A stretch of DNA of 64,000 nt. It comes from Branchiostoma floridae (taxonomy: Eukaryota > Chordata > Leptocardii > Amphioxiformes > Branchiostomatidae). The notes under the pieces were generated by a model. It had not been told where the DNA came from and made no database searches. It saw only the letters and a list, made by a program, of their open reading frames with translations. Below, piece by piece: positions 38,901 to 45,815 of the stretch. The stretch covers positions 20,581,180 through 20,645,179 of the forward strand of contig NC_049988.1 in NCBI RefSeq assembly GCF_000003815.2. The letters run 5' to 3'. How positions within the stretch are numbered: the stretch's first letter is position 1; each line of letters opens with the position of its first letter. Made by a program: the position numbers and the translations under genes.

Positions 38901-39379
38901 TGGCAACATGAGGCCCGCTAAGTTGACCTTTCACCCCTAAACACCAACAGCATAATAATAAATAAATTGCTGCATTAGTAAGTGGGGAGGGGGGCATAGA
39001 TTAGAAGGGATACGTCAGTGGAATTTACATTTCTGGTGTGATTGTACAATAGATTTCCCTCCTTTTACATGTTCTCTATAACACGCATCATATTTAGAAG
39101 TTCCCTGTTTTACCCTATTGTAACCACACGTCACGGCAACCCTACCTGTAAAACAACCGTCTTCTGACGACTTTCCGCCATGTCACTTGTAAACATGGCC
39201 CTGAAGTAGGGGCTGGCCGCGGACAGAACAAGCCGATGGCAGGGAAACCGCCGGCCCTCGACTTCAAGGACGACATCCTGAAATGCCCCATCCTTCTGTA
39301 AGTCGCCCACTGTTCCAAGAAACCTGTGCAGATAACTCTCGTCTTGGGAGGAACGAGGACGAACTGCCCTGACGTGGGG
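35983..39379 (-). pseudogene. KLHL-type gene, copy 2: pseudogene split by a transposon
   Basis: Exon remnants on the minus strand: BTB exon 39379-39146, 38511-38251, 37670-37531, 37339 to about 37138, and Kelch exon 36881-35983. BTB and BACK exons are open and very close to copies 1 and 3. Three lesions are visible. First, the start codon and six more codons are cut off by the insertion at 39389. Second, exon 4 has lost the donor seen in copies 1 and 3 (GT replaced by TT) and runs into TAG at 37137-37135. Third, the Kelch exon has a 5-nt deletion at about 36452-36458, where the counterpart of '[10 protein letters not shown]' is shortened, shifting the frame. Beyond the shift the frame is open to 35983 and carries an Asp/Glu-rich stretch ('ENDEDEDDEDDD') from a GAT/GAG microsatellite. 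Confidence 0.85.
38583..38722. mobile_element. MITE family A copy (diverged)
   Basis: 'tctccaagcagatcattcga' at the left and 'gatttgcttggagac' at the right face each other as in the copies at 20830 and 46810. It lies in the first intron of KLHL copy 2. I could not find a convincing target duplication. Confidence 0.65.
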
Positions 39380-39388
39380 TTCTTCGTC
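39380..39388. repeat. Left target-site duplication, ttcttcgtc
   Basis: The same nine bases occur at 45717-45725. On the coding strand they read GACGAAGAA (Asp-Glu-Glu), codons 5-7 of the interrupted KLHL exon. Confidence 0.9.
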
Positions 39389-39899
39389 AGATTTTGCACA
39401 TGGGGGCGACCCTCACGGCCGGCCATATTATATGTAAGACTATCACCGTATTCCAGCCAACTTTTAAAACGTCGTGAGGATCTCTTGATGAGTTATATGG
39501 AGTTAAACTCTTCTTCCAGACGAGTTTGAAGACCTCGTGAAGATCACTTCGTGAAAACGGAATTTCTGGCGTCAAAACTTGAACACATTTCAGGGTTTGA
39601 GGATCTGTTTCCGAGCCCGAATACAGGAAGTACCATCACGGGTCTATATGGGGTTTTCGCGAGGCCCATATTTTCATTTCCGGTCATGCATTTGACTTCG
39701 CAGTTTGAGTTGACGGAACAGCGTTCAAAAGATGTTACCAGTAATAATACAGACATAATGCTCTACTCTTACAAATTATTTTGGTAGTTTTTTTTTAGAT
39801 ATAACTTGCACATGGCTCTGTATTAACCGGGTATGGCATCAACTGGGAATACCCACACAAAGTTGTGTGGTCATTGTATACAAACAAGATAATACCATG

Positions 39900-42510
39900 T
39901 TGAATATTAGTACTTTGAAGGTAAGACAGGTGTGTTGTCTTTGAGTTATGACCAGGTAAAACCAGATGAGGTACATAACATGAAAGACATGTGTGTTTTC
40001 TTTGAATAGTGACCAGGTAAGACCAGATGAGGTACATTACAGGTAAGACAGGTGTGTTTTCTTTGACAACAGACCAAGTAAGACCAGATGAAGTAGATTA
40101 CAAGTAAGGCAGGTGTGTTGTCTTTGAATAATGACCAGGTATGATCAGGTGAGGTACATTACAGGTAAGAAAGGTGTGTTTTCTTTGACTACAGGCCAGG
40201 TATGACCAGATGAGGTACATTTCAGGTGAGACAGGTGTGTTTTCTTTGACAACAGACCAGGTATGACCAGATGAGGTACATTACAGGTAAGACAGGTGTG
40301 TTTTCTTTGAATAGTGACTAGGTATGACCAGATGAGGTACATTACATGTAAGACAGGTGTGTTTTCTTTGAATAGTGACTAGGTAAGACCAGATGAGGTA
40401 CATAACAGATAAGACAGGTGTGTTTTCTATGATTACAGGCCAGGTATGACCAGATTAGGTACATTACAGGTAAGACATGTGTGCTTTCTTTGACTACAGG
40501 CCAGGTATGACCAGATGAGGTACATTTCAGGTAAGACAGGTGTGTTTTCTTTGACAACAGACCAGGTATGACCAGATGAGGTACATTACATGTAAGACAG
40601 GTGTGTTTTCTTTGAATAGTGACTAGGTAAGACCAGATGAGGTACATAACAGATAAGACAGGTGTGTTTTCTATGACTACAGGCCAGGTATGACCAGATT
40701 AGGTACATTACAGGTAAGACATGTGTGCTTTCTTTGACTACAGGCCAGGTATGACCAGATGAGGTACATTACAGGTAAGGCAGGTGTGTTTTCTTTGAAT
40801 AGTGACTAGGTATGACCAGATGAGTTACATTACAGGTAAGACAGGTGTGTTTTCTTTGAATAGTGACTAGGTATGACCAGATGAGTTACATTACAGGTAA
40901 GACAGGTGTGTTTTCTTTGAATAGTGACTAGGTATGACCAGATGAGGTACATTACAGGTACGACAGGTGTGTTTTCTTTGAATAGTGACTAGGTATGACC
41001 AGATGAGGTACATTACAGGTAAGACAGGTGTGTTTTCTTTGAATAGTGACTAGGTATGACCAGATGAGGTACATTACAGGTAAGACAGGTGTGTTTTCTT
41101 TGACAACAGACCAAGTAAGACCAGATGAAGTAGATTACAGGTGAGACAGGTGTGTTTTCTTTGACAACAGACCAGGTATGACCAGATGAGGTACATTACA
41201 GGTGTGTTTTCTTTGAATAGTGACCAGGTATGACCAGATGAGGTACATTACAGGCAAGACAGGTGTGTTTTCTTTGACAACAGACCAAGTAAGACCAGAT
41301 GAAGTAGATTACAGATAAGGCAGGTGTGTTGTCTTTGAATAATGACCAGGTATGATCAGGTGAGGTACATTACAGGTAAGACAGGGGTATTTTCTTTACC
41401 AATTACTAGGTGATCAGATGANNNNNNNNNNNNNNNNNNNNNNNNNNNNNNNNNNNNNNNNNNNNNNNNNNNNNNNNNNNNNNNNNNNNNNNNNNNNNNN
41501 NNNNNNNNNNNNNNNNNNNNNNNNNNNNNNNNNNNNNNNNNNNNNNNNNNNNNNNNNNNNNNNNNNNNNNNNNNNNNNNNNNNNNNNNNNNNNNNNNNNN
41601 NNNNNNNNNNNNNNNNNNNNNNNNNNNNNNNNNNNNNNNNNNNNNNNNNNNNNNNNNNNNNNNNNNNNNNNNNNNNNNNNNNNNNNNNNNNNNNNNNNNN
41701 NNNNNNNNNNNNNNNNNNNNNNNNNNNNNNNNNNNNNNNNNNNNNNNNNNNNNNNNNNNNNNNNNNNNNNNNNNNNNNNNNNNNNNNNNNNNNNNNNNNN
41801 NNNNNNNNNNNNNNNNNNNNNNNNNNNNNNNNNNNNNNNNNNNNNNNNNNNNNNNNNNNNNNNNNNNNNNNNNNNNNNNNNNNNNNNNNNNNNNNNNNNN
41901 NNNNNNNNNNNNNNNNNNNNNNNNNNNNNNNNNNNNNNNNNNNNNNNNNNNNNNNNNNNNNNNNNNNNNNNNNNNNNNNNNNNNNNNNNNNNNNNNNNNN
42001 NNNNNNNNNNNNNNNNNNNNNNNNNNNNNNNNNNNNNNNNNNNNNNNNNNNNNNNNNNNNNNNNNNNNNNNNNNNNNNNNNNNNNNNNNNNNNNNNNNNN
42101 NNNNNNNNNNNNNNNNNNNNNNNNNNNNNNNNNNNNNNNNNNNNNNNNNNNNNNNNNNNNNNNNNNNNNNNNNNNNNNNNNNNNNNNNNNNNNNNNNNNN
42201 NNNNNNNNNNNNNNNNNNNNNNNNNNNNNNNNNNNGAACAGACCAAGTAGACCAGATGAAGTAGATTACAGATAAGGCAGGTGTGTTGTCTTTGAATAAT
42301 GACCAGGTATGATCAGGTGAGGTACATTACAGGTAAGACAGGTGTATTTTCTTTACAAATTACTAGGTGATCAGATGAGGTACATTAGAGGTACTACATG
42401 TGTGCTTTCTTTGACTACAGGCCAGGTAAAACCATATGAGGCACATCAGGGGCAAGTCAGGTATATTTTCTTTGCCTACAGAAGAGGTATTACCAAATGA
42501 GGTACAGTAC
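39900..42510 (+). repeat. Forward array of a roughly 61-bp minisatellite
   Basis: The unit is 'gtacattacaggtaagacag', then 'gtgtgttttctttgaatag', then 'tgactaggtatgaccagatg'. More than 20 copies are visible before the N gap and more follow it. Variants alternate 'gactacaggcc', 'gacaacagacc' and 'gaatagtgac' in the middle, which suggests higher-order units. Confidence 0.95.
41422..42235. other. Assembly gap (814 N) with overlapping flanks
   Basis: The sequence just after the gap (42236-42380) is nearly the same as the sequence just before it (41278-41421), including the variant unit 'ttactaggtgatcagatga'. The true gap may be zero or an array-length uncertainty. Confidence 0.95.
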
Positions 42511-42529
42511 AATGTACAGGAAAGTACAT

Positions 42530-43280
42530 AACCTGGTGCCTTCTGGTCAATCTTCAAATTAAACATACCTAATCTTACCTGTAATGTACATAACCTGGTG
42601 CCTTCTGGTCAATCTTCAAATAAAACACACCTGTCTTACCTGTAATGTACATAACCTGGTGCCTTATGGTCAATCTTCAAATAAAACACACCTGTCTTAC
42701 CTGTAATGTACATTACCTGGTGCCTTATGGTCAATCTTCAAATAAAACACACCTGTCTTACCTGTAATGTACATTACCTGGTGCCTTATGGTTAATCTTC
42801 AAATAAAACACACCTGTCTTATCTGTAATGTACCTTACCTGGTGCCTTATGGTCAATTTTCAAATGAAACACACCTGTCTTACCTGTAATGTACCTTACC
42901 TGGTGCCTTATGGTCAATTTTCAAATGAAACACACCTGTCTTACAAGATATGTACATTTTTATAGTCAATTTTAAAAATGAAACACCTGTGTTACCTGAA
43001 AAGTTCCTTACCTTGTGTCTTATGGTCAATCTTAAAATGAAACACACCTGTTTTACTTGTAATGTACCTTACCTGGTGCCTTATGGTTAATCTTCAAAGA
43101 AAACACATTTGTCTTACCTGTAATGTACATTACCTGGTGTCTTGTGGTCAATCTCTGAAGAAAATACACCTGTCTTACCTGTAATGTACATTACCTGTTG
43201 TCTCAGGTCAATCTTTAACGAAAACACACTTGTCTTACCTGTAATGTACCTTACATGATTATGATCAATCTTCAAAGAAA
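42530..43280 (-). repeat. Inverted array of the same roughly 61-bp minisatellite
   Basis: Twelve or so units of 'acacacctgtcttacctgta' plus 'atgtacattacctggtgcc' plus 'ttatggtcaatcttcaaa'. The reverse complement of 'acacacctgtcttacctgtaatgtac' is the first part of the forward unit; the middle part differs between the arms. The orientation switches at about 42,510-42,540. Confidence 0.9.
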
Positions 43281-43339
43281 ACAAACACATTTCCCTTCCC
43301 TTACTTTTGAAGGAAACTATATCTAACATGTAATGTACC

Positions 43340-45650
43340 TCATCTTGTTTACCTGGTCCCTAGTCCGAGTACACGAGTACAGACCTGCTTTACCTTTAAT
43401 TATATGTACGGAACTCTCACATCCCTCCCGGCATCATCAGATAGTTTTACTTTTCACAATCATCGCACCACTTAGTACTTTGGGAGCAATTCTTTTTGGA
43501 ATATCAAACAGACCAATTTATACCAAACCTTTAACTTATGTCATTGGAGAGAGTCAAGCTGCGAGTTTTTCTGTCGGTTTTCTTTCTGGCCATAGGAGAA
43601 CGCGACCTTTAAAACTTTGTAATCTAAGTTATGACTCGTAAAGACTTGTGTTTGACACAAAATGTTTTAATATACATCGTTTTGAAAGAGTACCCTTGAT
43701 GAATCTTGGACAAGTGCCGGAGGAAAGTCTCACTCCCCGGTCAAATCCATTCCTGTATCCTGTATCTGTCATCACAGTGCAGTGAGCGGGAAAGACCGAA
43801 CCTTTACAAAGTGATATAAGTAGGCAGTTTCATATGGTCACATTATTCTGGTATTAAAGGAGTATTACTTTGTGGGTAATACTCTCCGTTGTTTGAAGGA
43901 GAATTTGTTTTATCCGAAGTACATAGACAGGCCGTTGATCACCGGATATTACCAAACCTTTAATCAATCTAAGATTAATGTTACACATCTAACAGTTGGG
44001 TCTATTTCACCCGAAAGACTTTGCCTTTAGCTATATGACAAAAGATCCTTGATTCACACAGACTGGTGAGTTTTCATCTGTATCGTTGGAAGAAATACCC
44101 TTCATATCTCTTGCAGTTTCACGTAGCTCGTTGGAAAGGAGTATTGTGATATTTCAACTTGTATCATTTGAGATCATTTGAAAGATACAGTCTACTGAAA
44201 ACTGTTTAGGGTCCTGATTCAGGGCTGTGTTGCCAAAAAGACCTATCGGGCCTCCACAAATCTCTGCCAGTCATATAGAAATCTTCTGTGTCTGTACCAG
44301 TGTTTTGTGTTCGGGAAATTAATTTAAAACGGATACATTCCGCAGTTGTATTATTTGAAAGTTACTTGGCAGGAAGGATACCTAAGAGTCTCGTGGCATA
44401 TACATGCGCGTTCCAACCACTCACGGCTTCGGCAGATTGAGCGAGGCTACATGACTGTATATGGTGTCAATTTAAAAGGCTTCTCTTGATCAGGAAGTGA
44501 ATTCCCTTCCTGAATCGTGAATAGATTGGTTCCTAAGCCGTAGGATTGTGTGCTGGTCCATCTCTGCTGATTACAGCTCTAATCTTCCTTTACTTATAGA
44601 GTGCACAGTCCATTCTTTTGTCTTCAATCTACCATAGGCAAAAGTGCATGTATTGTTGGTTCAAAGAACACTGTGCATTCGCCTTTAAATCAATACGGCT
44701 ACACCGTATCTTGAACCCGGATAGCCTATAATCAATCTTTAATATATACGTATACAATTTAACATATACGACTTTTTGTACATAAATGTATTAAAAGCCT
44801 ACAAAAACACTCCCTCCACACCAGACTCTTGTGCTTGTCTCAGGTCGTGCCACTTCCAATGTGCAACGTTACTTTTGAAGGGAAAATCCGGGCACTTTGA
44901 TTGAAGTAAGAATTTTCATGGTGTTCCTTCATCACAACTTAAAAGAAAGCACTGTCCCATCGCAGCATTGTATATCCTGTGTGCCTAATTTTTCTTTTTA
45001 AATTTCAGGCGCAACATTGCACACCGTGATTGCGCCTCTCGCCAACAAGAAAAAAAAATTCAAGACACTCTCCGGGCCACGTGGCGCAGTTTTAACACAT
45101 AACGTTGTAGTTTTTTGTAAGCAAGTGGGTAAGTGGTTAAGTAGTGGTCTAAGGGGGAGAAAATAATACCTTCAGAGTGCAAACATGAAAATCAGTTTTG
45201 ACGCGGTTTTCACAAGACTAATTAATTTTCCATCCTTAGTAAGCAAAACGGAAAGTGCGCCAAGGGATCCAAGGGGGTGTCGTATTAATATACAAAACAA
45301 TCTTTGGTCCTAAATGCCCAAGTACGTGCAAATAAGCAAGAGAGTCTGCCCGCCGATCTACAACCAGTGCTCCGAGTAGTAAAAGCCCGAAAGACCCGGC
45401 AACTAAATTAAACTCCCCGGGGCAAGGAGGTTATCGAGCTCTCCCCGGAGCGCTAAGTTAGATTGGCGGGCAGGCGGCACTAGTGAGCCACCGAAGAAAC
45501 AGCCTGCCGCCCCTGGATATGGATATCTGGTACCAGGAAAACTTGTTATCAATATTAAACTTTTATTTTTTTGATAGCCCCTTTGCTGCTTTTTGCTGCT
45601 CAATGCCCTGAAAATGTGACCCGGAAACTGATAGACCTCGTTCAATTCCC
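43340..45650. other. Single-copy interior of the Foldback-like element
   Basis: No transposase motif or long reading frame is visible. A 'ttgaaag' type motif recurs near 43680, 44085, 44160 and 44355 in AT-rich surroundings ('gaaagagtaccc', 'ggaagaaataccc', 'gaaagatacag', 'gaaagttactt'), suggesting old tandem structure. I cannot assign a function. Confidence 0.4.
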
Positions 45651-45716
45651 GAATGCCTCAAAACCCCCATATAGAACCATGTCTGCCCGTGAGGGTCGCC
45701 CCCGTGAACACGATCT

Positions 45717-45737
45717 TTCTTCGTCTGCGGCAGCCAT
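45717..45737 (-). pseudogene. Displaced first seven codons of KLHL copy 2
   Basis: On the minus strand ATG at 45737 reads M-A-A-A-D-E-E and then runs into the element end. The last three codons are the duplicated target. This tip plus the 78 codons at 39379-39146 gives an 85-codon BTB exon in the correct frame. The adjacent promoter-like flank (45738-45815) matches the flank of KLHL copy 3. Confidence 0.88.
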
Positions 45738-45815
45738 GTTGATGATGATGGTATGACCCAGGGGTCAAAGGTTGGGACATACTTCAATTACCCACATAAT
45801 GTAGCATTTTTGTTT
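45738..45815 (-). promoter_or_regulatory. Conserved 5' flank shared by the KLHL copies
   Basis: The sequence from 'gttgatgatgatggtatgac' to 'ccacataatgtagc' closely matches 52246-52316 upstream of copy 3, and less closely 34214-34277 upstream of copy 1 ('ccacatagtgtagc'). It probably holds the core promoter and 5' UTR. There is no TATA box. Confidence 0.5.

Follow-up and report, generated by a model that had tools for sequence, protein, structure and literature searches.

A Foldback-architecture transposon family of Branchiostoma floridae with a start-codon motif 19–21 bp from 11 of 18 insertions

A DNA transposon of 6,328 bp, here called W, splits the first coding exon of one of three KLHL-like genes, which stand in tandem on the minus strand of a 64,000-nucleotide stretch of the Branchiostoma floridae genome (contig NC_049988.1, positions 20,581,180 to 20,645,179; hereafter the window). 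W is flanked by an exact 9-bp duplication, contains paired inverted arrays of 61-bp repeats, and belongs to a dispersed family. In 11 of the 18 insertions that could be evaluated, W among them, one element end lies 19–21 bp from an ATGG, which in 10 of the 11 is embedded in a sequence resembling TISU, a start-codon element bound by YY1. A sequence-only reading of the window that preceded this work had recognized the insertion, and missed that its place is non-random. We consider it probable (roughly 0.7) that W is a recently mobile, non-autonomous element built like a Foldback, that the transposase of a Mutator-like element (MULE) most likely moves it, and that it prefers to integrate with one end about 20 bp downstream of the A in a TISU/YY1-type start-codon element. 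We infer from sequence that a protein on the motif, either YY1 or a transposase that reads it, would position strand transfer, and that the transposase would be of MULE type.

Insertion of W into the first coding exon of KLHL copy 2

The features that define the insertion are as follows (positions within the window).

39389..45716, plus strand (assigned arbitrarily): Foldback-like DNA transposon copy W, 6,328 bp, of which 814 are N
41422-42235: N gap in W, 814 bp
39380..39388: target-site duplication, left copy, 9 bp, TTCTTCGTC
45717..45725: target-site duplication, right copy, 9 bp, TTCTTCGTC, an exact match to the left copy
39389..39418, plus strand: left terminal inverted repeat of W, 30 bp, AGATTTTGCACATGGGGGCGACCCTCACGG
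45687..45716, minus strand: right terminal inverted repeat of W, 30 bp, AGATCGTGTTCACGGGGGCGACCCTCACGG (reversed)
39146..39388, minus strand: remainder of the BTB exon of KLHL copy 2, severed from its start codon

When the site is closed with a single copy of the 9-bp sequence, the two sides join as MAAADEEPHVRAVRPRS...VVLQ, an in-frame exon of 255 nucleotides (85 codons) that ends CAG/GTAGG. The BTB exon of KLHL copy 1 has this length of 255 nucleotides and the same splice donor, and that of copy 3 measures 249 nucleotides. A chance recurrence of the 9-mer is ruled out by this restored exon and by the other copies of the family. The terminal repeats AGATTTTGCACATGGGGGCGACCCTCACGG and AGATCGTGTTCACGGGGGCGACCCTCACGG (reversed) are identical at 25 of 30 positions. 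Followed upstream from the exon into W, the frame of KLHL copy 2 stays open for 8 codons before a stop and contains no in-frame ATG; the gene has therefore been decapitated by W. Four claims of the sequence-only reading were thus borne out: an insertion that splits a KLHL exon between exact copies of TTCTTCGTC, inverted ends of the inserted DNA, an 85-codon BTB exon of the same length as in copy 1 upon joining the sides, and the absence of an in-frame start from copy 2.

The transposon family and its target sites

The same reading had proposed a search for further copies, which we ran on the assembly containing the window (513.4 Mb, 431 contigs); these searches score the best candidates only, and copy numbers are accordingly lower bounds. 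The left end (101-bp query) was found at at least 15 places and the right end (110-bp query) at at least 17, while a degenerate terminal-repeat pattern allowing up to two mismatches occurred at 29 places, against none for the reversed control pattern. These hits resolve into at least 20 copies, ten of which have both ends and both flanks readable. An exact 9-bp duplication is present in seven of the ten (W, L009, L010, L011, L017, L021 and el11), that of L011 possibly being 10 bp; the duplication of L020 matches at 8 of 9 positions, and L019 and L022 have none. The terminal repeats are asymmetric, reading AGATTTTGCAC... on the left and AGATCGTG... on the right, with GGGxGCGACCCTCACG in common. 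W and L009, separated by 59 kb on the same contig, share 99.0% identity across the left 480 bp and differ in their duplications and flanks, and the 1.2-kb copies L020 and L021, from separate contigs, show 2 mismatches in 1,202 positions; judged from these identities, the family moved recently. Identity between W-type copies and those of the L019–L022/el11 type is ~74–79% over the left 480 bp. L013 and L015 contain large N gaps, and L040 encloses a retrotransposon-like frame. L015 (C10:4353137) also stands just upstream of a signal-peptide-like frame (LPLRLSWTTWLLFLFLTGF, identified by eye), the start of which is not visible, the unseen flank being behind the N gap.

The target sample comprised 18 insertions with 28 flanks, each flank read towards the element. 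Eight insertions contributed one usable flank (L012, L013, L014, L015, L016, C3:31420606, L040 and L042). Flanks were left out at L014 (right; last 2 bp changed, no ATGG in the 60 bp seen), L016 (left end truncated) and L012 (right; N), and two loci fall outside the 18: L043, the outer end of which is missing, and L044, with ~50 bp of a right end, not anchored. ATGG starts 19, 20 or 21 bp outside one element end in 1, 6 and 4 flanks, respectively, corresponding to 11 of 18 insertions (4 of 8 with one flank, 7 of 10 with two), where 0.3–0.4 would be expected. Elsewhere within 120 bp, at most 3 flanks have ATGG at one and the same offset. Random positions taken from the window outside the element and from the fetched loci gave a rate of 1.09% per flank, and hence P = 6.6e-16 for 11 of 18. 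When every 4-mer was scanned in every 3-bp offset bin, the ATGG signal ranked top with its 11 insertions, and 300 boundary-shifted null sets reached a maximum of 7 (once), mostly 4–5.

Aligned on the ATG, the 11 sites read A (10/11) A (11/11) n ATGG (11/11) C (10/11) n G (9/11) C (10/11). The TISU 12-mer used for scoring begins with an S. At least 10 of its 12 positions agree in ten of the 11 anchored sites (P ~6e-29, from a background rate of 1.1e-4 per position). TISU itself, AAS-ATG-GCGGC, is described from human genes with very short 5′ untranslated regions and is bound by YY1 (PMC2518114). In every one of the 11 anchored cases the element lies 3′ of the motif, and either of its ends may face the motif: the right end in W, L009, L010, L019 and L040 (5), the left end in L012, L013, L017, L020, L021 and C3:31420606 (6). 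The site at W, and a related sequence within the element itself, are located as follows.

45730..45741, minus strand: TISU/YY1-like target motif CAACATGGCTGC with the ATG of KLHL copy 2 (45737-45735); 11 of 12 positions match
39422..39429, minus strand: subterminal GCCATATT (AAnATGGC read outward), YY1-core-like; core kept in 14 of 15 family left ends

At W, the A of the copy 2 ATG is 21 bp from the element end. KLHL copies 1 and 3 in the window carry a TISU-type motif too, unoccupied by an element. On another contig (C18), L012 is preceded by a 5′ sequence 78% identical over 93 bp to the start region of copy 3 and 74% identical over 98 bp to that of copy 2, and L012 and W stand equally far from their ATGs but turn opposite ends towards them. 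Because the elements are oriented oppositely to the motif, W and L012 hit the same site independently, in two related sequences. An old insertion copied by segmental duplication is ruled out by this opposite orientation and by the differing adjoining bases.

The second motif is the target core inverted, pointing outward: GCCATnTT occupies positions 34–41 of the left end in 14 of 15 copies (L017 is one base off) and is present in 0 of 16 right ends. The core is kept between W-type and L019–L022/el11-type copies despite a difference of ~21–26% over the left 480 bp, which fits a putative binding site for the same protein, be it YY1 or the transposase.

Of the three KLHL genes, copies 2 and 3 were scanned against Pfam. 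BTB and BACK in copy 2 exons, and BTB and kelch in copy 3, score over the cut-off; the kelch exons of copy 2 give sub-cut-off matches or none. Relative to copy 3, the copy 2 kelch exon contains a frame change between 36429 and 36455 (minus strand), which points to copy 2 as a probable pseudogene or dying copy, apart from the insertion of W.

Interior architecture and the search for a transposase

Inside W, three regions can be distinguished.

39919..42414, plus strand: direct tandem array of 61-bp units, with the N gap 41422-42235 inside it
42524..43283, minus strand: inverted array of related 61-bp units; 383-nucleotide arms are 76% complementary to the direct array
43284..45716: right arm of W, mostly non-repetitive

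Of the 13 copies that were scanned, six have 61-bp units in a direct and then an inverted array (W, L009, L010, L011, L012 and L016) and seven do not (L014, L017, L019–L022 and el11), with arm complementarity measured in W and the inversion read from unit sequences in the other copies. Unit counts (direct plus inverted) are 16.0 + 11.2 in L009 and 7.2 + 8.2 in L012, and the arrays begin ~530 bp inside the left end (917 bp in L012). At ~43981, W is without 267–322 bp that are present in all seven other copies spanning the point (L009–L012, L014, L016 and L040). The consensus of the 61-bp repeat (39919-42414) has a splice-donor-like CAGGTAAGA across the unit junction, resulting in many donor-like sites in one orientation. 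The right arm at ~45340-45540 partly resembles a separate interspersed repeat ending CTGGTACCAGG, and similar tails occur at loci without family ends. Five loci considered as a sister family (L049–L053) were rejected: none has a family end, three carry the TCTGGTTCCAGGGTA tail and two a part of it, and their likeness looks like another repeat inside the right arm.

A hint of coding capacity within the family comes from el11, a 10,457-bp copy (C10:23461230-23471686) with the 9-bp duplication CTCCTGCAA. It holds a broken MULE-like piece, a 98-residue open frame with weak similarity to ZSWIM1-3 RNaseH-like (E=0.071, below the Pfam cut-off), which matches 12 other genomic places, one of them weakly (8.5e-4); two overlap independent MULE-domain (PF10551) hits. 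Its closest relative, L048, is 67–90% identical to el11 over parts of 4.1–5.2 kb and has a 326-residue open frame over the Pfam cut-off for ZSWIM1-3_RNaseH-like, a MULE match at 7.7e-4, below the cut-off of that model, a weak FAR1-type zinc-finger match (E=0.099) and a SWIM-like stretch recognized by eye; a PHD finger was not hit in the three L048 pieces scanned. No family ends occur within 9 kb of L048, and el11 may for this reason be either a decayed autonomous copy or one that captured the MULE-like piece. Frames of at least 110 residues are few outside el11, and seven of them (from L010, L011, L012, L016 and L017) gave no Pfam match up to E 0.1; four repeat-derived frames of W, L011 and L012 were outside that scan, and of the seven frames of el11 one, the piece described above, was compared with Pfam. 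Elsewhere in the genome, at least 27 MULE-domain hits are listed, and no family copy coincides with any of them; a PDB sequence search with the el11 piece returned nothing.

Other MULE-like loci were noted in the course of the search. L046 (C13) and L047 (C2) represent a duplicated MULE transposase locus (MULE 4.2e-20, ZSWIM1-3_RNaseH-like 1.3e-35), 99.97% identical over 3,205 bp, and the 1384-residue frame of L047 runs into repeat-encoded C-terminal units. As an autonomous partner the pair was rejected: its one readable boundary (TCGCTGTGGC...) is unrelated to the family ends, and neither a duplication nor the other boundary was found. Four further relatives (C3:13871049, C9:1319046, C11:2877336 and C17:6192200) have identical match scores and open frames of 914–1087 residues, which may run through N, and are possibly an intact, recently spread autonomous family. 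The short core of the terminal repeat was also sought beside MULE relatives, giving 52 hits versus 23 in controls. Family ends account for 30 of the 52, and the remaining hits all lie away from the relatives of the el11 piece.

These results bear on the class of the element, for which the sequence-only reading had favoured Foldback over Mutator. The interior is indeed Foldback-like, with inverted arms of short tandem repeats in six of the 13 copies, and the 9-bp duplication agrees with Foldback (FB) elements. The tandem repeats do not form the termini themselves, however, and a MULE-like piece is present in el11. Duplication length also falls within the 8–11 bp of MULEs (exact 9 bp in 7 of 10), and terminal inverted repeats are present at ~30 bp, those of MULEs commonly being hundreds of bp. 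Because the arrays lie ~530 bp inside and el11 contains the MULE-like piece, a Mutator-type element of Foldback architecture (compare Rehavkus and Tm1) fits better than a plain Foldback, without being proven.

Known elements can be compared as follows. The MULE-related Rehavkus elements (e.g. Rehavkus-1_TC) share the 9-bp duplication and internal minisatellite found here, and have terminal repeats of 26–400 bp (PMC6446971); tandem arrays also occur in the inverted termini of a 9.5-kb Rehavkus element (PMC10218199). In contrast, the PHD-finger transposase of Rehavkus was not found here, and in the text consulted Rehavkus is listed from arthropods and annelids, with no TISU-type target. Tm1, a Mutator/Foldback element of root-knot nematodes, is alike in having tandem units within composite inverted repeats, duplications that are mostly 9 bp long, and several non-autonomous groups, but its tandem units are 13–15 bp and lie within the terminal repeats, and its authors report no clear target consensus (PMC3169594). 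Drosophila Foldback FB4, compared here by description, is likewise non-autonomous with 9–10-bp duplications, and its authors judge a MULE origin more likely (PMC8277862), whereas its terminal repeats are ~700 bp. The Aedes MULE Muta1 makes 8–9-bp duplications and prefers genic regions, yet shows little or no sequence preference in yeast or in the genome (PMC5225508). MuTAnT of Medicago is a MULE family with a defined target, which consists of TA microsatellites and not of a start-codon motif at fixed distance (PMC4486113). Earlier reported MULEs or MULE transposases of B. floridae were not confirmed (PMC6446971). In open-licence PMC text we found no report of amphioxus Foldback-like elements, of Rehavkus in chordates, of details on B. 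floridae MULEs, or, among the leading matches, of a transposon held to YY1/TISU sites.

Positioning at the start-codon motif: proposed mechanism, rivals and meaning

In the proposed mechanism, a MULE-like transposase would excise the element by its asymmetric ends and generate the 9-bp duplications, while a protein seated on AAnATGGCNGC would place the transpososome, with the 9-bp stagger falling at ~+11 to +21 from the A of the ATG. A spacing of two helical turns would bring the cut onto the same DNA face as the anchor, and first coding exons would be split a few codons past the ATG, as in KLHL copy 2. If the transposase is the motif reader, the core in the left end may be a second binding site for it. 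Since the motif is a known YY1 site and the left-end core is compatible with both proteins, we lean slightly towards YY1 as the positioning protein. The specific form of this proposal, in which integration is tethered to a host core-promoter or start-codon element, the transpososome docking on (or mimicking) YY1 at TISU and inserting about two helical turns downstream of the ATG, with a YY1 core carried in the left end, is tentative, and we would place the odds a little against it.

Several observations weigh against guided integration by a MULE-type enzyme. Seven of the 18 insertions are unanchored (L011, L014, L015, L016, L022, el11 and L042), L011 and el11 despite exact duplications, and L044 is unanchored as well, so that counting it gives 11 of 19; in one-flank copies such as L015 the motif could be on the unseen side. 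The site at L021 matches TISU at 6 of 12 positions only. The reading frame from the anchored ATG closes after 11–20 codons at L009, L017 and L019, and the anchored ATGs that resemble starts are those of W (KLHL) and L010 (142 codons open), and perhaps L020 (42) and L021 (35). With starts recognizable at only part of the anchored ATGs, what the sites have in common may be a YY1-type motif rather than translation itself. At L012, no KLHL coding part was found; a 100-N gap opens the right flank, and no KLHL match at 1e-3 came from what remains of the 10-kb locus. The motif, moreover, was noticed by eye and afterwards tested on the same copies. On the side of the enzyme, the el11 piece scores below the Pfam cut-off and may be a captured fragment, the MULE match of L048 falls below the cut-off of its model, L048 has no family end within 9 kb, and neither an intact autonomous copy nor an intact transposase with family ends was found among the copies.

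Four other explanations were weighed against these data. Muta1, like earlier plant MULEs, favours genic regions (PMC5225508), and YY1 motifs are enriched just downstream of transcription start sites in human promoters (PMC8384218, PMC10979970), so that an element drawn only in a general way to open chromatin around the 5′ ends of genes could encounter the motif often, its position being incidental. Such a preference would spread insertions over tens to hundreds of bp, however, whereas 11 are found at 19–21 bp with at most 3 flanks at any other offset, and the 300 boundary-shifted null sets never exceeded 7; we regard it as very unlikely. A special case of the favoured explanation, possible if rather doubtful, dispenses with YY1 and has the transposase itself read AAnATGGCNGC with its own DNA-binding domain. 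Conservation of GCCATnTT in 14 of 15 left ends across ~21–26% divergence is consistent with this, as is the weak FAR1-type zinc-finger match in L048 (E=0.099), yet the core is absent from all 16 right ends while either end faces the motif (5 right, 6 left).

The identity of the enzyme is a separate matter. A classic Foldback (FB) element with a Galileo-like transposase of the P superfamily would account for the Foldback architecture and the 9-bp duplication, and Galileo shows that Foldback-like ends are possible in that superfamily (PMC3573991). The MULE-like coding remains in el11, the ~30-bp terminal repeats and the arrays placed ~530 bp inside argue against it, and we consider it unlikely, noting that no search aimed at P-type transposases was made. 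Finally, the 814 N inside the array might suggest two loci misjoined across the gap, but both ends, the arms and the paired arrays recur gap-free (0 N) in L009, L010 and L011, and the flanks restore a conserved exon; an assembly artefact of this kind deserves almost no credence.

Many DNA transposons, Muta1 and Tm1 among them, have a weak local sequence preference only. Foldback architecture with 9-bp duplications is already known (FB4, Tm1 and Rehavkus), and the new part is the target choice, which suggests an element guided to a start-codon motif. A family held 19–21 bp from a start element would make Mutator-type target choice directly testable, would provide a natural system of landing pads at start codons, and would point to a host factor or motif guiding DNA transposition in a chordate. 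The insertions further show a way in which gene duplicates can be silenced by elements of this kind: of the three KLHL genes in tandem, one has been left without a start, and a KLHL-like 5′ sequence on another chromosome was struck independently at the corresponding spot.

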